A DNA stretch of 36,004 nt, taken from NCBI GenBank assembly GCA_021815645.1, contig JAKBAB010000011.1:1-36004 (forward strand), given 5' to 3'. Below are positions 3,013 to 24,277 of this stretch, piece by piece. Source of the DNA: Actinomycetes bacterium. GTDB lineage: Bacteria > Actinomycetota > Acidimicrobiia > Acidimicrobiales > RAAP-2. The notes under the pieces were generated by a model. The model did no database searches. It was not told where the DNA came from and was given only the letters and a program-made list of their open reading frames with translations. Within the stretch, counting starts at the first letter, position 1. Each line of letters begins with the position of its first letter. Both the position numbers and the translations under genes were made by a program.

Positions 3013-3952
3013 TGCGCACCCCCGGTCGAACCCGTGGGTCGAGCACGACCTGCATCAGGTCGGTGGCGAGATTGAGGAAGACCACGACGGCGCCCGCCAG
3101 TACCGCGATCGTCTCAACTAGGGGGTAGTCGCGCTGTTCGACCGCTTGGAACAGTAACGTGCCCAGTCCCGGTATCTGAAAAACCTGTTCGAGCACGACC
3201 GTGCCACCGATGAGGAAACCGACGTTGACCGCGAGCACGGTAATCGTCGGCATTACCGCGTTACGCATAACGTGGCGGGTAAGTATCCGCCGCGTAGAAA
3301 GTCCGCGGGCGTTCGCGGCCTCGATGTACTCGAGCGACAGTACGTGTCGGATGCTCGTTCGCAGCGTTCGTACGATGACCGCCAACAGTGATAACCCCAG
3401 GGCGATGGCCGGCAAGGTCAGTGACTGGACGACGCCGAAGAACCCCGAGCCGTAGCCCGACACCGGGAGCCAGTGAAGTTTCAGAGCGAAAACGACCGCC
3501 AGAATTAGACCGGACCAAAATGTCGGCATGGCGAAACTGATGGTCGTGAACACCCGGATCCCGTGATCGAGTGGTCGCTCCGCGCGCAGCGCCGACGCCA
3601 CCGCGAGCGGGACCCCGAGAACCAGCGCCACGATGAGGCCGTAGGCGATCAGGGCCAGGCTGGGCACGGCGCGCTGGGCGATCAGTGACGAGATGCTCTG
3701 AGAAAAGGTGAAGGACGTCCCGAAGTGCCCGGTCACCAAGTGACCGAGGAAGAGTCCGAACTGCTTGGCGAGGGGTTGATTTAGCCCCAGGCTGTCGCTG
3801 ATTTGGCGTATCTCGCTCGGCGTCGCTCGAGGTCCCAGCATGGTCGCCACGGGATTGCCCGGCACGAAGTGGATGAGGGAGAAGGCGAAGAACGACAGCA
3901 GTACTAGTTGGATCAGGCTCACGCCGACGCGCCGCGCCACGTACCCCGTCAC
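3005..3952 (-). CDS. Peptide/nickel-type ABC transporter permease (DppB/OppB-like)
   Basis: This 315-residue membrane protein begins GYVARRVGVSLIQLVLLSFF, the usual DppB opening, followed by HFVPGNPVATMLGP. The central segment has the conserved SFAMPTFWSGLILAVVF helix and LPVSGYGSGF loop. The EAA loop reads AANARGLSTRRILTRHVMRN, and the end has VFQIPGLGTLLFQAVEQRDYP. Six membrane segments can be drawn. The start is GTG at 3952, preceded by a G-rich ribosome-binding stretch that lies partly in a hairpin (see 3955-3978). It directly follows the solute-binding protein gene and precedes dppC-like 2155-3012 with an eight-base overlap. Confidence 0.93.
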   Translation of the reverse strand: MTGYVARRVGVSLIQLVLLSFFAFSLIHFVPGNPVATMLGPRATPSEIRQISDSLGLNQPLAKQFGLFLGHLVTGHFGTSFTFSQSISSLIAQRAVPSLALIAYGLIVALVLGVPLAVASALRAERPLDHGIRVFTTISFAMPTFWSGLILAVVFALKLHWLPVSGYGSGFFGVVQSLTLPAIALGLSLLAVIVRTLRTSIRHVLSLEYIEAANARGLSTRRILTRHVMRNAVMPTITVLAVNVGFLIGGTVVLEQVFQIPGLGTLLFQAVEQRDYPLVETIAVLAGAVVVFLNLATDLMQVVLDPRVRPGVRSE

Positions 3953-3954
3953 CG

Positions 3955-3978
3955 GACCCCCCCTAGGGGAGAGGGGTC
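3955..3978 (-). promoter_or_regulatory. Intercistronic stem-loop covering the permease ribosome-binding site
   Basis: In the 63-base gap between the binding-protein stop and the permease start, GACCCC and GGGGTC arms (3973-3978 and 3955-3960) can pair, with an inner CCCCTAGGGG palindrome as an alternative fold. The G-rich arm also supplies the likely Shine-Dalgarno sequence of the permease gene. Such a hairpin would stabilise the upstream mRNA end and damp permease translation. Periplasmic-binding-protein operons often use this arrangement to keep binding protein in excess. The function here is inferred. Confidence 0.45.
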
Positions 3979-4015
3979 TCGGTGGCTACGAGGCTGTGAC
4001 ACGACGCGTGGGCGA

Positions 4016-5647
4016 TTACGGCGCAATCCACGTGTACTGCAGAGAGTCGGCACCGAGCGGGTCGAGGTACGTCCCGCACACGTTCGACTGGTGCGCGTTC
4101 AAAAAGGGCAAGTCCATCACGTTGATGAAGGGGGTCTGGGCCATCAGCGCGGCCTGAATCTTGGGCCACATCGTCACCCGCGCGGCGTTGCTCTGGGTGT
4201 GGTCGAAGGTCGTGACCATGTTGGCGATGGTCGGGTCGTTCCACCACGAGAAGAAGCTGTACCCACCGCCGCCGTAGGTCGTAACGAACGTCGCGTACTC
4301 GTCGGGGACCGTGACGTCACTCGTGAACTCGGCGTAGGGGAAGGTTAGGTCGTACTGACCCTTCATGTACAGCGCCGTCATGGTGGCCTGGTCCTCGCTG
4401 ATCAGCTTGACCTTGATGCCAATCGAAGCCCACTCGGCCTGGAGGATGAGGACCAGGTTCGTGTACTCGGCGTAACCGCTCGGGTACTGCAACGTCGTGG
4501 AAAAGCCCTTCGGGAAGTCCGACTTGGCCATGTACTTTTTCGCCAGCGCCAAGTTGTAGCTGTAGGGCTTGACTACCGAGTTGGGGGCGTCGTACTTGAG
4601 TTGGGGCAAGACGCTGTTGGGTATGGTCCCCAGGCCGTCGAAGACGGTCTTGTTGATGAGCGGGCGATTAATCGCGTACTCCATCGCCAAGCGAACGTCG
4701 AGGTTTTGGAACTGCTTGCGCTGGTGGTTGAGCCACAGTCCCACCCAGTAGGGCACTTTGGCCGGTTGCAGAACGAGCTTGGGGTTGGACTTGACGGTGG
4801 CCACTTGGGAGAAGGGGATGCCGTCGGCGATCTGGGCCTGGTTGTTCTCCAAGTCCAGTAGGCGCGTGTTGTCGTTCTGCGCGTACTGGTAGGTCACCGA
4901 GTTCAGGTACGGCAGACCCGGCTGCCAGTAGTAGGTGTTACGGCTGAAGGAGATCGACGAGCCGCGGACCCACTTGTTCAGCTTGAACGGTCCGGTACCC
5001 ACCGGATTGTTCCAAAAATTCTTACCCTCCTTCGTGACGAGGTTCTTCGGCACGATAAACGCGTCGAAGATGCTCATGTTGTAGAGCAGACCCGGCGTCG
5101 GCGTCGAGAGAGTCATCTCGACGGTCGAGTTGTTAAGGGCGCGCGCGCTCTTAAAGCCCCCCGACAGAACGGCCGTCTCGTCGAGCTTGGGGTTCGCGAA
5201 GTAGTCGAGGGAAAAGACCACGTCGGCCGCGGTCACGGGCTGACCGTTCGAGAACTTTATGCCCGGGCGGATGTGAAATACGTAGCTCAGTCCGTTCGCG
5301 GACACCGTCCAACTACTGGCGACCGCGGGCACGATGTTCTGCGTTTTCCCGGTGGGGTCGGGCATGACGAGTCCCTGATACAAGAGCGTGTCGGCGAAAA
5401 TGTCACCGTTGCCGTTGGTGGGAAAGAAGGGGTTGAGCGTCACCGGCCCCGTTTGACGGGCGTAGGTGAGCGATCCGCCCCGGACCGGTGTGCCCGAACA
5501 GACCGTGGAGGTCGTGTGGCTCTTAACCGAAGCCGAGGCGCTAACGGCGGGCAGGACCAACCCCACCATCGCGAGCGCCAGCGCCCCTTCGACCATCCAG
5601 TAACGGTGCCGCCGCGACCGGTAACTAACTTCGCGAGTGCTCAACAC
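4016..5647 (-). CDS. Extracellular solute-binding protein, family 5 (peptide/nickel class)
   Basis: This is the ligand receptor of the importer, about 543 residues. A basic stretch (YRSRRHRYW) and a hydrophobic helix (GALALAMVGLVLPAV) end in SASA, a plausible signal-peptidase I site. No lipobox cysteine follows the helix, so the protein looks secreted or wall-held rather than a lipoprotein. Family hallmarks include GGSLTYARQTGPVTLNPF, ASSWTVSANGLSYVFHIRPG with KFSNGQPVTAADVVFS, and NNPVGTGPFKL. The mature chain has only two cysteines, one near each end. The open frame extends upstream to 5722, but AGGAGG at 5652-5657 sits just before GTG 5647 (4 bases) and TTG 5644 (7 bases), so the start is one of these two. 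A promoter lies at 5722-5750. The ligand is unknown. Confidence 0.9.
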   Translation of the reverse strand: MLSTREVSYRSRRHRYWMVEGALALAMVGLVLPAVSASASVKSHTTSTVCSGTPVRGGSLTYARQTGPVTLNPFFPTNGNGDIFADTLLYQGLVMPDPTGKTQNIVPAVASSWTVSANGLSYVFHIRPGIKFSNGQPVTAADVVFSLDYFANPKLDETAVLSGGFKSARALNNSTVEMTLSTPTPGLLYNMSIFDAFIVPKNLVTKEGKNFWNNPVGTGPFKLNKWVRGSSISFSRNTYYWQPGLPYLNSVTYQYAQNDNTRLLDLENNQAQIADGIPFSQVATVKSNPKLVLQPAKVPYWVGLWLNHQRKQFQNLDVRLAMEYAINRPLINKTVFDGLGTIPNSVLPQLKYDAPNSVVKPYSYNLALAKKYMAKSDFPKGFSTTLQYPSGYAEYTNLVLILQAEWASIGIKVKLISEDQATMTALYMKGQYDLTFPYAEFTSDVTVPDEYATFVTTYGGGGYSFFSWWNDPTIANMVTTFDHTQSNAARVTMWPKIQAALMAQTPFINVMDLPFLNAHQSNVCGTYLDPLGADSLQYTWIAP

Positions 5648-17192: not shown

Positions 17193-17461
17193 TTCGCGCG
17201 CTCCACGACGTCGGTCAAGCGCCACCGCTTCAACTTCGACAGCGGACGGGTCTCTTGAACCCGGACGCGATCGCCCACTTTGGCCTCGTTCTTCTCGTCG
17301 TGCACGTAGAGCTTCTTCGTGCGCTGAACGGTCTTGTTGTAGCGGGGGTGACTGACTCGTTCGTTGACGGCCACGACCAAGGTCGAGTTCATCTTGTCCG
17401 ACACCACGACCCCTTCGCGGACCTTGCGGGGGTTCTTTCGAACGTCGTTCGATTCACTCAT
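17189..17461 (-). CDS. rpsQ: 30S ribosomal protein S17
   Basis: This early-assembly 16S rRNA binder has 90 residues. After a short N-terminal extension it shows [37 protein letters not shown] and [20 protein letters not shown], all standard for S17. ATG overlaps the rpmC TGA (ATGA at 17458-17461). Confidence 0.97.
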
Positions 17462-17697
17462 GACGCTTCACCTTCTTCCAGGGCTTCGGCGGCCGCGATC
17501 TCGCGCTCGCGCATGAACGTCGACAACCGCGCGACGTCTTTGCGCACGGCGCCGAGCCGGGCGGAGTTGTCTAACTGACCGGTCGCCAGTTGAAAGCGCA
17601 GGTTGAACAGCTCGCGACGGGCCTCGGCCAGACGCCCGAGCAGTTCGCTGTCGCCGAGCAACTTCATCTCCGCAACGTGTTCTTTGGTTTTAGCCAT
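17458..17697 (-). CDS. rpmC: 50S ribosomal protein L29
   Basis: This two-helix protein sits near the peptide exit tunnel and has 79 residues. LLGRLAEARRELFNLRFQLATGQLDN is the family signature. A short acidic tail ([11 protein letters not shown]) follows the usual end. The frame is open far upstream within rplP, but ATG at 17697 shares one base with the rplP TAA (TAATG) and gives the usual length. Confidence 0.96.
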   Translation of the reverse strand: MAKTKEHVAEMKLLGDSELLGRLAEARRELFNLRFQLATGQLDNSARLGAVRKDVARLSTFMREREIAAAEALEEGEAS

Positions 17698-18134
17698 TAG
17701 ATGCTGACCTCCGGGACTCCGTGGGTTCCGGGTCGCACGACGAACTTCGCCTTGATGGGGAGCTTTTGAATAGCCCGTTCCATTGCGGCGCGCGCCAGGG
17801 CCTCGTCCACGCCACCCAACTCGAATAGCATGCGGCCGGGCTTGACGACGGCTACCCAAAACTCGGGGTTACCCTTACCCGAACCCATACGGGTCTCGGC
17901 GGGCTTTTGCGTCACCGGCTTGTCGGGAAAGACCCGGATCCAGACCTTGCCGCCGCGCTTGACGTGACGGGTCATCGCGATACGGGCGGCCTCGATCTGG
18001 CGGGCCGTGATCCAGCCGCGCTCGAGCGCCTGGATGCCGAAGTCGCCGAAGTTGAGGTCCACCCCACCCTTGGCGTTTCCAGCCATCCGCCCGCGCATCT
18101 GCTTGCGGTGCTTCACCTTACGGGGCATCAACAT
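17697..18134 (-). CDS. rplP: 50S ribosomal protein L16
   Basis: This protein lies near the A-site tRNA on the large subunit and has 145 residues. It starts [19 protein letters not shown], close to the L16 consensus, and has the signature segments [22 protein letters not shown] and [21 protein letters not shown]. The frame stays open upstream through the rpsC tail. ATG at 18134, two bases after the rpsC stop, is the correct start. Confidence 0.97.
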
Positions 18135-18136
18135 GA

Positions 18137-19081
18137 TTACTCCGCGTCCTTTCGAAAGTGGGGCGTGTCGGTGTGCTCGACCGCCGTACGGCGTTCGATC
18201 TCTTCCTCGACGCTCAACTGCGCTTCCACCTCCGGCGTTGAGGCCAGCAAATCGGCGGGGTTGACGTCCGTGGTTAGCGCGCCCTCGTCGAGGGTGGTCT
18301 CGGCGTCGAGGGTCTCGGCGTCCACGCGCCGTCGCCCCCCGCCCGCGCGCACGACACCTTTCGGGGCGCCCGACCCAGCCCCCACCGGCATCGCGTCGCC
18401 GGCGGCCATCGCCGCTTCGCGCACGATCTTCTCGTCGTTGGTCAACTGGTAGGGCAGAATGTCGCCCTTGTAGATCCACACCTTGACGCCGATGCGTCCG
18501 GTCGACGTGCGGGCCTCACGAAACCCGTAATCGATGTCCGCGCGCAGGGTGTGCAGCGGCACGCGACCTTCGCGGTACGACTCACGGCGGGACATTTCCG
18601 CGCCCCCGAGCCGTCCCGAAGCCTGGATTCTCACGCCCAGAGCCCCGGCCTTTTGAACAGTTTGGATGCCCCGCTTCATCGCTCGGCGAAAGGCCACGCG
18701 GCGGATGAGCTGGTCGCAGATGCCCTGAGCGATGAGGGCCGCGTCCAGTTCGGGCTGCTTGATTTCTTGGATGTTGAGCGAGATCTTGTTCTTCTGACCG
18801 GTGATCTTTTCCAGGTCCTTCTTCAGCCGTTCGGCCTCGGCCCCACGCCGACCGATGACGATGCCCGGGCGCGCGGTGTGTATGTCGACGCGAACGCGAT
18901 CGGAGTTTCGCTCAATCTCAATACGACTCACGGCGGCGCTCTCGAGTTGACGCGTCAGGTAGTCGCGAATCTTCCAGTCCTCGATAACGAGGTCTCGGTA
19001 CCCGCGCTCCTTGAACCAGCGCGACTTCCAGTCCGTCGTAATTCCCAGCCGGAATCCGTAGGGGTTGACCTTTTGACCCAT
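18137..19081 (-). CDS. rpsC: 30S ribosomal protein S3 with long acidic C-terminal tail
   Basis: This mRNA-entry-channel protein begins [13 protein letters not shown]. It has a type II KH domain with its GRRG loop at residues 77-80 and the C-terminal core [27 protein letters not shown] ending near residue 206. The chain then continues for about 100 residues, to 314, against 233 in E. coli. The tail has an A/G/R-rich part ([15 protein letters not shown]) and then an acidic, threonine-rich part with many glutamates. Longer S3 tails occur in actinobacteria. The start ATG overlaps the rplV stop by one base. Confidence 0.97.
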
Positions 19082-19797
19082 TAGTTCGTCTCCTCCGCGG
19101 ACTCGGGGGAATCCCCCTCGCCGAGCGTTTCGTCGTCTGGCGAAAGGTCTTCGAGCGTCGCGTCCCCGTCGTCAACAACGTCTCCCTCGCCGAGCGGAGA
19201 GTCCGCCGACGACGACTCGAGTTCGCCCTGCGCTTCGAGTTCTCCCTGCGCGTCGAGTTCGGCCTGCGCCTCGATTTCGGCCTGCGCGTCGAGTTCGGCC
19301 TGCGCCTCGTGGGCGGCCTCGCGCCGGTTCACACTGGCCTGCTGGTCGGCCCGACGCCGTGACGTCGCGACCCGGCGAGACCGACTCGCCAAAGCGCTAG
19401 CGCTGCGAGCGGCTTGAAACAGTTCCAAACGCTCCTCGTCCATCCGCGAAACGATGACGGTGATGTGGGTAGAACGCTTAAAGATCTTGCCCGCTCGCCC
19501 GCGGGCGCGCGGGGAGAAGCGCTTCATCGTGATTCCCTCATCCGCGTAGGCGGCCGACACGTAGAGTTCGTCAATGTTCATCGCGTCGTTATTAACGGCG
19601 TTAGCGACCGCCGACGCCAGAACCTTCGCGATGACGCTCGCGGCTTCGCGCGACGTCGACGCGAGAATCTCTCGCGCGCTCGCCACGTCTTCGCCCCGAA
19701 TGAGGTTGAGCACGACACGCGCCTTCGACGCGGACATCTGGTAGCCGCGCACCGAGGCCCGAGTGCCGGGACGTTCGTTGGTCTTCACGTAGGCCAC
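19081..19797 (-). CDS. rplV: 50S ribosomal protein L22 with extended repeat-bearing tail
   Basis: L22 lines the peptide exit tunnel. The core, residues 1 to about 120, is normal: [49 protein letters not shown] and the [13 protein letters not shown] loop. The protein then runs on to 238 residues, roughly twice the E. coli length. The extension has an Arg/Ser/Ala-rich helix-like part (131-160), five six-residue repeats built on AQAELD (163-192), and a strongly acidic end. A structured L22 extension should lie on the ribosome surface near the tunnel exit. ATG overlaps rpsS by one base. Confidence 0.97.
19222..19311 (-). repeat. Five tandem 18-bp repeats within rplV
   Basis: Units at 19222-19239, 19240-19257, 19258-19275, 19276-19293 and 19294-19311 are each 18 bases, with the consensus TTCGGCCTGCGCSTCGAG on the plus strand. 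They encode five in-frame hexapeptides on the pattern LDAQAE in L22 residues 163-192. The unit keeps the reading frame, so copy-number changes would alter only tail length. Confidence 0.9.
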
Positions 19798-21215: not shown

Positions 21216-21895
21216 CACGCACTCTCCTTCGCGCTGGGCAGCGTCGCTTCGCTAAAGAGGATCCAGTCGCAGTTAAGAACGTCGTACGCGTTGAGCTCGC
21301 CGGCGTCGATCGTGGTCACGTTGATGAGATTGCGAAAGGCCCGTTGGGCCACGGAGTCTTCGCGACCGAGCACGACGAGGACCTTCCCGTCGAGGCCGAG
21401 CGCCCCGAGGGCCATCTCCGCTTCCTTAGTGCGTGGCTCACTCCAGGGGGCGAAACTCTCCACCAGGGCGACCCGTTCAATCGCCGCTCGGTCCGAGAGC
21501 GCCGAGTTGAGGGCGAGGCGAATCATCTTCTTCGGGGTCCGCTGCTCGTAGGAGCGTGGCTTAGGGCCGAGGGCGATGCCACCACCGGGGTAGTGGGGGG
21601 CGCGAACGGTGCCCTGGCGAGCCCCACCGGTGCCCTTTTGGCGAAAGGGCTTTTTGCCGCCCCCGCGCACCTCTTTGCGAGTTTTCGTGGACTGGGTCCC
21701 GGCGCGCCGGGCCGCCAGCTGGGCCGTGACGACTTGGTGCATGACGGCCACGTTGGGCACGATCCCGAAGACGTTGGGGTCGAGGGCGACGTCGCCCAAC
21801 GAGTCGCCGCTCAGCGAACGTTTCGTCACCGTACGCGCGGTGGGCGCCGGCCGCTCCTTTTTGACCGGCCCGCGCAAAGTAAAGACCTCACTCAT
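21215..21895 (-). CDS. rplD: 50S ribosomal protein L4
   Basis: This 226-residue protein has a long internal loop reaching the exit tunnel: RGGGKKPFRQKGTGGARQGTVRAPHYPGGGIALGPKPRSY, residues about 77-116, is the family hallmark. In E. coli L4 also represses its own S10 operon; nothing here shows that directly. ATG overlaps the rplC TGA (ATGA, 21892-21895). Confidence 0.97.
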   Translation of the reverse strand: MSEVFTLRGPVKKERPAPTARTVTKRSLSGDSLGDVALDPNVFGIVPNVAVMHQVVTAQLAARRAGTQSTKTRKEVRGGGKKPFRQKGTGGARQGTVRAPHYPGGGIALGPKPRSYEQRTPKKMIRLALNSALSDRAAIERVALVESFAPWSEPRTKEAEMALGALGLDGKVLVVLGREDSVAQRAFRNLINVTTIDAGELNAYDVLNCDWILFSEATLPSAKESA

Positions 21896-22551
21896 CGGAT
21901 CCCTCCGGCCTTCATCGGGTTCTTGACCGACGTGCGCAGGACCACCAGTCCCCCACGGGGCCCCGGTACGGCGCCCTTGACGAGCACCAAGTGGCGCTCA
22001 ACGTCGACCGAGATGACCTCTAAGTTGGTGGTGGTCACCTGGGAACCTCCCATGCGACCGGCCATTTTCGTTCCTCGAAAGACTCGACCGGGCGTCGCGC
22101 AAGCGCCGATCGACCCCGGGGCGCGGTGGTGCTTGTGGTTGCCGTGGGCCGCCCCTTGGCCCGAGAAGTTGTGGCGCTTCATGCCCCCGGCGAAGCCCTT
22201 CCCCTTCGAAACCGCGGTCGCGTCGATCTTGTCGCCCTGGCTAAAGACGTCGGCCAGTATCTCCTGGCCCACTTCGTACTGGGTTACGTCATCGAGGCGC
22301 AACTCGACCAACTTCTTGCCCGGGGCGACACCGGCCTTTTCGAAGTGGCCCAATTCGGGCTTGGTCAAAGTGGCGGGCCGCCTAACCCCCCACGTCACCT
22401 GGACCGCGGCGTAGCCCTCTTTTTCCGGCGTCTTGACCTGGACGACGCGGGCCGGGCTCACGCGTACGACGGTGACCGGAATGGCCCGGTTCTGGTCGTC
22501 CCAGACCTGGGTCATCCCCACCTTCTCGCCGACGATCGCTTTGGTCGCCAC
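21892..22551 (-). CDS. rplC: 50S ribosomal protein L3
   Basis: This assembly initiator near the peptidyl-transferase centre has 219 residues. It begins AIVGEKVGMTQVWDD and contains the signature SKGKGFAGGMKRHNF, then GSIGACATPGRVFRGTKMAGRMG. The start is GTG at 22551 with GAGGA four bases upstream. It is the first gene after a 208-base spacer with two hairpins, so it probably begins its own transcript or a regulated segment. Confidence 0.97.
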   Translation of the reverse strand: MATKAIVGEKVGMTQVWDDQNRAIPVTVVRVSPARVVQVKTPEKEGYAAVQVTWGVRRPATLTKPELGHFEKAGVAPGKKLVELRLDDVTQYEVGQEILADVFSQGDKIDATAVSKGKGFAGGMKRHNFSGQGAAHGNHKHHRAPGSIGACATPGRVFRGTKMAGRMGGSQVTTTNLEVISVDVERHLVLVKGAVPGPRGGLVVLRTSVKNPMKAGGIR

Positions 22552-22592
22552 CTTGTCCTCTTCCTCTTACGTGCCCGACGTCGGACGGGGCC

Positions 22593-22620
22593 GACATACA
22601 GACGCTCCGCCGGGCGACAA
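22593..22620 (-). promoter_or_regulatory. Possible promoter upstream of rplC
   Basis: TTGTCG (22615-22620) and TATGTC (22593-22598) on the minus strand are 16 bases apart and end about 42 bases before the rplC GTG. The match is moderate. It gains weight from its place downstream of a terminator-like hairpin in an otherwise gene-free spacer. Confidence 0.35.
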
Positions 22621-22690
22621 AACCCGAACGGAGCGCTCGACTGGTTGGTTCGGCGTTCCACGAATGGCGACCGAACACATCTTTTGTGCA

Positions 22691-22706
22691 CCCCCAACAA
22701 TGGGGG
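22691..22706 (-). promoter_or_regulatory. Second stem-loop in the rpsJ-rplC spacer
   Basis: CCCCCA and TGGGGG arms (22701-22706 and 22691-22696) form a six-base stem with a four-base loop on the minus-strand RNA. It lies about 25 bases downstream of the larger hairpin. It may be part of a leader structure for the rplC operon; this is inference. Confidence 0.45.
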
Positions 22707-22730
22707 CTACTCACTCTACACCACCACCTC

Positions 22731-22752
22731 CCCGGGGCGCAAAGGCCCCGGG
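22731..22752 (-). terminator. Strong hairpin directly after rpsJ
   Basis: CCCGGGGC and GCCCCGGG (22745-22752 and 22731-22738) form a perfect eight-base stem with a six-base loop. An outer CCACC/GGTGG pairing (22754-22758 with 22724-22728) extends it. It starts a few bases after the rpsJ TGA. No T-run follows, as is usual for terminators or attenuators in GC-rich actinobacteria. Confidence 0.6.
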
Positions 22753-22759
22753 CGGTGGC

Positions 22760-23083
22760 TCAGTTCTGGCGAATCTTGATCTCGATGTCCACACCGGCCG
22801 GTAGGTCGAGGCGCTGGAGCGAGTCGACCGTTTTGGCCGTGTGATCAACGATATCGAGCAGCCGCTTGTGCACCCGCATTTCGAAGTGCTCGCGACTGTC
22901 CTTGTGCTTGTGTGGTCCGCGCACGACCGTGTAACGGTGCTTCTCCGTGGGCAGGGGCACCGGCCCCTGGACGCGGGCGTTCGTGCGCTCCACGGTCTGG
23001 ACGATTTTGGCGGTGGACTGGTCCAGAACGCCGTGATCGAAGGCCTTCAGCCGTATGCGAATCATCTGTCGGTTGTCGGCCAC
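22760..23083 (-). CDS. rpsJ: 30S ribosomal protein S10
   Basis: S10, also NusE of antitermination complexes, has 107 residues. [60 protein letters not shown] and the ending are all standard. The start is GTG at 23083, six bases after the tuf stop; an internal ATG six codons later would give the shorter usual N-terminus. It is closely attached to tuf and well separated from rplC, so it seems to belong to the str transcript. Confidence 0.96.
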
Positions 23084-23089
23084 GCGAAC

Positions 23090-24277
<1,188 letters not shown>

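Follow-up and report, generated by a model that had tools for sequence, protein, structure and literature searches.

A candidate rplC leader RNA at the putative junction of the str and S10 transcription units in Acidimicrobiia

The spacer between rpsJ and rplC in the 36,004-nt stretch of acidimicrobial DNA analysed here (the window) is supported by its sequence as the junction of two transcription units, at which the S10 operon is cut after its first gene and rpsJ is retained in the str unit, and this spacer carries a conserved structured RNA that is best read as a new family of ribosomal-protein leaders. The explanation as a whole, a two-unit junction followed by a new rplC leader that mediates autogenous feedback by a ribosomal protein, is considered likely, and by analogy with known leaders the RNA is probably a feedback switch that balances ribosomal proteins. 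It is a candidate S10-operon leader for a whole, little-studied class of Actinobacteria, most sampled members of which carry it at the same position, and no previous description of one there was found. The S10 operon is among the most conserved gene runs of bacteria, and its regulation has been worked out for few lineages.

The spacer between rpsJ and rplC, a putative unit junction

On the minus strand of the window the genes rpsL-rpsG-fusA-tuf-rpsJ are followed by the spacer and then by rplC-rplD-rplW-rplB-rpsS-rplV-rpsC, after which the run continues with the genes of L29, S17, L14, L24, L5, L6 and L15 and with secY (Table 1). A preliminary description of this locus, made from the sequence alone, had pointed to a 208-nt gap among the usually tightly packed S10 genes and to a distance of 6 nt between tuf and rpsJ; both lengths are exact (the gap covers 22552-22759), and the genes downstream are tightly packed, with overlaps of rplC with rplD and of rplD with rplW, each of 4 nt. 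The products of some genes of the run have long extensions. The 238-aa product of rplV (19081-19797, minus strand) has its L22 domain at residues 15 to 116 and a long C-terminal extension, as has the 314-aa product of rpsC (18137-19081, minus strand), with its S3 domain at residues 1 to 209, and the L29 reading frame (17458-17859) either has an N-terminal extension or has its true start further on.

Table 1. Positions of the genes and of the predicted elements of the spacer in the window.
Feature	Position	Strand	Basis
tuf (EF-Tu)	23090..24277	-	NCBIfam TIGR00485
rpsJ (uS10), putative last gene of the str unit	22760..23083	-	NCBIfam TIGR01049; adjoins tuf
Hairpin 1, palindrome right after rpsJ	22723..22759	-	Fold; co-evolving arms
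Predicted -35, TTGCGC, within the hairpin 1 loop	22737..22742	-	Conserved TTGC[GA]-19-TANNNT
Predicted -10, TAGAGT, 18-nt spacer	22713..22718	-	Conserved TTGC[GA]-19-TANNNT layout
Predicted transcription start	22706..22708	-	Position of the -10
Hairpin at the predicted mRNA 5' end	22690..22707	-	Fold only
Candidate rplC leader RNA, whole covariance-model match, ~96 nt	22589..22684	-	Model R1, 81.9 bits; model R2, 79 bits (the window belongs to the training set of both)
P1 hairpin, candidate protein-binding site	22648..22676	-	Five basal pairs covary
P2 hairpin, CGCUCCG...CGGAGCG nearly invariant	22603..22635	-	Alignments A1 and A3
P3, 3-bp helix closing P2 (22641-22643 with 22599-22601)	22599..22643	-	Weakly supported
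rplC ribosome-binding region, purine-rich	22552..22567	-	Sequence, by eye
rplC (uL3), opening gene of the S10-spc run	21892..22551	-	NCBIfam TIGR03625

The genome that carries the window is 86.5% complete and of the Acidimicrobiaceae type, and the named genomes closest to it are MAGs of Acidimicrobiaceae, many of which come from bog and palsa samples. When 80 related loci were compared, both rpsJ and rplC were recognised in 76, and the gap between them measures 193-406 nt except in L039, L045, L047 and L048, where it measures 607-1171 nt, and in L062. In this last locus (positions 3942-4030) the promoter and the 5' hairpin pass straight into the codons of rplC, with neither leader nor start codon; it is probably an assembly error and is for this reason not scored as a true loss of the leader. 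The spacer set used below consists of 72 sequences (70 distinct), being the window and 71 of the 80 loci, after removal of four loci without S10, four in which the gap exceeds 450 nt, and L062. Five loci (L016, L028, L034, L035 and L071) are labelled Candidatus Saccharibacteria or Acidobacteria and have rplC loci of the Acidimicrobiaceae type (82-89% identity); these are probably mislabelled bins.

For the gap, the predicted fold of the minus strand has a free energy of -98.8 kcal/mol, with z = -3.34, and none of 200 dinucleotide shuffles is as stable. The two GC-rich hairpins of the preliminary description are present, but the fold has more than two: the hairpins at 22723-22759 and 22690-22707, P1, P2 and another that precedes the ribosome-binding site of rplC. 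As for the promoter that the description mentioned as possible, a generic sigma-70 scan misses it (one match in 18 kb, elsewhere), but its layout, TTGC[GA]-19-TANNNT, is kept in 60 of the 72 spacers, and the 12 spacers without this strict form are those of more distant relatives. The hairpin at 22690-22707 (minus strand) varies in sequence among relatives and could shield the predicted 5' terminus of the mRNA.

Hairpin 1, the loop of which holds the predicted -35, seems to be terminator and promoter scaffold at once. Its two arms vary together, as the real hairpins fold at a mean of -35.1 kcal/mol (58 spacers) compared with -22.2 kcal/mol when arms are swapped (596 chimeras), and the median fold of the real hairpins is reached by only 3.0% of the between-species chimeras. 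In L038 and L044 a GC hairpin has a U-rich tail and its loop contains the -35, as in a fused intrinsic terminator/promoter; the hairpin of the window, unlike these, is a GC stem that lacks the U-tract of an intrinsic terminator, and because of this we can only infer termination there. Further evidence comes from the four loci with long gaps (L039, L045, L047 and L048), which carry extra DNA between rpsJ and rplC and which, falling into two closely related pairs, may represent two events. In these, a strong hairpin with a T-run is seen by eye directly 3' of rpsJ, and the fold of the promoter region is weak (-6.9 to -15.9 kcal/mol), whereas the same region of the contiguous spacers folds at a mean of -36.1 kcal/mol (sd 7.2), with weak folds of hairpin 1 also in the contiguous spacers L063, L005 and L066 (two of them cut short). 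The presence of a separate rpsJ terminator together with a weak promoter palindrome makes hairpin 1 look like a fusion of terminator and promoter, and it is likely that in hairpin 1 the str unit's 3' hairpin and the promoter of rplC have merged. An automatic test for a U-tract terminator after rpsJ finds one in three of 32 loci from other families (0.10 expected), in two of 72 close loci and in one of 16 split loci; this test is too strict, as it missed the four canonical terminators recognised by eye. The extra DNA of L045 resembles, by eye, an aldo/keto reductase gene.

The two genes are also found apart. Eighteen genomes have an rplC locus without rpsJ, and in 16 of these rpsJ was located elsewhere; 14 of the 16 have tuf upstream of rpsJ at a distance of -3 to 40 nt. 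In seven genomes (G091, G095, G122, G094, G112, G147 and G125) rpsJ and rplC share a contig and are separated by about 2.8-10 kb; in the other split genomes the two genes sit on separate contigs, in part perhaps because of contig breaks, and the contigs of G106 and G130 end near rplC. The end of the leader is close to the rplC start (median 36 nt, interquartile range 30-55 nt, n = 102), and the distance from the end of rpsJ to the leader ranges from 41 to 2029 nt (n = 71 with rpsJ in the fetched DNA). The suggestion that rpsJ ends the str transcript is thus supported by tuf remaining beside rpsJ in the split genomes and by the U-tract terminators directly after rpsJ in four relatives, and the suggestion that rplC begins a separate unit agrees with the conserved promoter and with the leader staying with rplC when rpsJ is distant.

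Structure, covariation and distribution of the leader RNA

A block of about 96 nt downstream of the promoter is present in every close relative and in most other families of the order. Its structure was assessed in two alignments. A1 is a MAFFT alignment made without structure, consisting of 32 sequences hand-picked from 90 extracted cores (53 loci yielded no core, and wrongly cut cores were left out). A3 is a model-fitted alignment of 86 sequences, which is biased towards the structure; its loci were chosen after matches were known in 94 of 100 loci, so that the 86 leader matches among its 86 sequences are not an independent count. An alignment of P1 only (A4), in which lineages were shifted against each other by one base, was excluded. 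In A1, 94.0% of the cells pair, 12 of the 25 pairs have changed on both sides, and the covariation is 0.390, compared with 0.167 for shuffled and at most 0.095 for slid alignments; the values for A3 are 93.5%, 17 of 25 pairs and 0.397. RNAalifold, without being supplied with a structure, predicts 18 pairs, those of P1 and P2 among them.

Relatedness was controlled for with 40 alignments simulated along the tree for each of A1 and A3, and in both sets all five basal pairs of P1 lie above all 40 simulated alignments. P1 is a variable hairpin, but its internal loop, GCC opposite GGNAC, is strongly conserved in an invariant manner. For P2, P3 and a possible closing helix, P0, no significant covariation is seen against the same null in A1 and A3. 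P2 gives no such signal because it is too conserved, and rare double changes occur in it (67-89 and 69-87 in A1); P3 is paired in 78.9% (A1) and 78.7% (A3). P0 is not supported: its column pair 6-190 is paired in 58 of 86 sequences, which is the number expected by chance from the make-up of the columns. The pairs that flank it vary too little for an assessment. The preliminary description had proposed a covariation analysis of the spacer and had named a lack of conservation of the hairpins as evidence against its reading; P1 covaries beyond the tree-aware null, and the leader occurs across the class.

P2 has a terminator-like stem with a U-poor tail (at most four T in the next 8 nt in 79 of 86 leaders), and in most leaders it is clear of the rplC ribosome-binding site. 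The 5' strand of P2 can also form a small hairpin that is followed by GUUUU (22624-22640, minus strand; from a terminator scan) and that is exclusive with P2. This alternative hairpin is seen by eye in close relatives, is absent from many other families, and could be a pause site. At 22595-22608 (minus strand) a GGAG in the 3' arm of P2 is followed after 7 nt by GTG, ATG or TTG, an arrangement found in 76 of the 86 leaders of A3. A leader-peptide attenuator was nevertheless rejected: the geometry of a ribosome-binding site is present, yet no reading frame is conserved. The frame relative to rplC is evenly spread (37, 35 and 30 of 102), many of the reading frames stop at once, their length is not conserved, and stops are not depleted in frame (34/1551, compared with 20/1520 and 31/1487 in the other frames).

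A search of 396 genomes of the phylum with R1 (E <= 0.01) gives matches in 39. For the 28 of these that belong to the class, the best match is on the strand of rplC and 17-157 nt ahead of this gene in 28 of 28 cases, in agreement with the consistent position of r-leaders before ribosomal-protein genes. The out-of-class matches are weak GC-rich hairpins; none of the 11 has rpsJ, rplC, rplD, rplW or tuf nearby, seven lie directly behind the stop codon of another gene, and for these reasons they were rejected as homologues. Within the class, R1 matches 176 of 395 genomes at E <= 1e-3, and R2, which was built from A3, matches 261 of 394 genomes (E <= 1e-4; sample restricted to genomes with a completeness of 90% or more); searches of more than 40 genomes were run with stricter filters. 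The 133 of 394 class genomes without an R2 match, which partly make up whole families (such as f32, f126 and members of f39), indicate that the leader is either not universal or has diverged. When loci were searched directly, the leader was found in 94 of 100; L129, L139, L148, L154, L162 and L062 gave no match, and L154 and L162 keep a P1-like hairpin by eye. Among 28 S10 loci from the phylum sample the leader is found only in L266, which is in the class, and in the remaining 27 the gap between rpsJ and rplC measures -10 to 128 nt.

Proposed mechanism and possible ligands

In the proposed mechanism, the str unit (rpsL-rpsG-fusA-tuf-rpsJ) would terminate at hairpin 1, and a sigma-70-type promoter with its -35 in the loop of this hairpin would start the mRNA of rplC-rplD-rplW-rplB and the following genes. 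This mRNA would open with a leader of about 157 nt that holds the lineage-specific structured RNA (P1 and P2/P3). A free ribosomal protein of the operon would bind P1 and, together with P2, lower expression of the operon, most likely via premature transcription arrest or via blocked initiation at rplC; P1 as the protein site and P2 as the attenuating or pausing element are assigned after the E. coli S10 leader. As for the ligand, the "Prior" rule of Eckert and Weinberg, as given in excerpts of PMC7247131, is to name a known ligand of the operon, which applied here gives uL4. By the precedent of S10-operon leaders uL4 is the likeliest, though still tentative, choice; uS10 is a rather doubtful one, and the rest of the odds falls to uL3 or another protein of the operon.

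It is very improbable that the spacer is an ordinary long one, crossed by a continuous transcript from tuf to rplC and folded into hairpins by chance. The collinear genes and the missing U-tract of hairpin 1 of the window would suit this, but the stability of the fold relative to shuffled sequences, the covariation, the class-wide presence of the leader and the separation of rpsJ and rplC in other genomes argue against it. P2 could be a leaky intrinsic terminator or a pause hairpin accompanied by a P1 without specific ligand; the out-of-class matches, mostly located just behind stop codons, suggest that P2 resembles Actinobacterial terminators, but such a plain terminator is improbable, as it leaves unexplained the U-poor tail, the near-invariant stem and the conserved internal loop of P1. 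The leader could also be a structured 5' UTR with a response unrelated to ribosomal proteins, for example to a small molecule, a growth-rate factor, RNase processing or mRNA stability, which would be in agreement with P2 being conserved beyond what is expected of a mere spacer hairpin, and with the fact that no rRNA mimic could be established. This reading is doubtful, since the in-class matches of the genome search lie only before rplC, as is the case for ribosomal-protein leaders, and none of the known riboswitch families matches.

The search for an rRNA mimic bears on a more specific and unlikely form of the ribosomal-protein reading: the ligand would be uS10, encoded in the adjacent str unit, and P1 would imitate helix 39 (h39) of 16S rRNA, so that the amount of uS10 controls the rplC operon across the two units. 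In 16S rRNA of the same genus (L295), h39 (CUAUGUUGCC...GGGGACUCGUAG) is built like P1 from a stem, one or two bases left unpaired, and GCC opposite GG-N-A-C with an N-A bulge; in P1 the bulge position is A in all 86 leaders. In one genome, of which the 16S and 23S genes were scanned, h39 is the only site with a stem of at least 6 and a loop of at most 25, and excerpts of PMC10695388 describe uS10 as stabilising h39 in the yeast head. The likeness is not significant, however, when compared with controls: such a site occurs in 17 of 300 shuffles of 16S length, in 17 of 200 of 23S length and at about 0.14 per 1.5 kb of genomic control, and a 5-bp site in the fragment fits the P1 motif too. A scan with a P1 profile scores h39 at 12.9, below a 23S position at 16.1, and the full models pass over h39; against the rRNA genes of G091 they reach at best 8.5 and 10.3 bits, in both cases at an unconvincing site. 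Moreover, the GUUGCC form common to P1 and h39 is found in only 10 of 86 leaders, and the likeness is only a lead. The full combination, a class-wide leader through which uS10, by way of a P1 that copies h39, controls its former operon, with the loop of the str terminator being the -35 of the controlled promoter, is quite unlikely; if true, the str and rplC units would be tied together both in DNA and by feedback.

Comparison with known leaders

Searches of Rfam 15 give no match at the gathering score in the window and 12 related loci; in 14 further loci only a tRNA is matched. A relaxed search at E up to 5 gives nothing credible. A literature search, outside the scope of which lay a 2017 survey of 224 motifs and supplementary files, found no description of this leader; likewise, Table 1 of PMC7247131, with its 20 leaders, has none that precedes rplC in Actinobacteria, and the excerpts of PMC2864571 show no such leader.

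In the E. coli S10 leader, as described in excerpts of PMC10578931 and PMC10931766, uL4 causes premature termination as well as translational repression. By description, the leader reported here is similar in being long and structured, with an upstream hairpin and an attenuator-like hairpin. The two differ in position, since the E. coli leader is placed before rpsJ, whereas here the leader lies between rpsJ and rplC and rpsJ is left in the str unit. The L31 and L17 leaders of Actinobacteria are likewise lineage-restricted structured RNAs that lie consistently before ribosomal-protein genes, although those genes are other ones. The L4 r-leader of Archaeoglobi also precedes an operon that is led by rplC (rplC, rplD, rplW, rplB and further genes; Table 1 of PMC7247131); it is archaeal, and this comparison is one of listed position alone.
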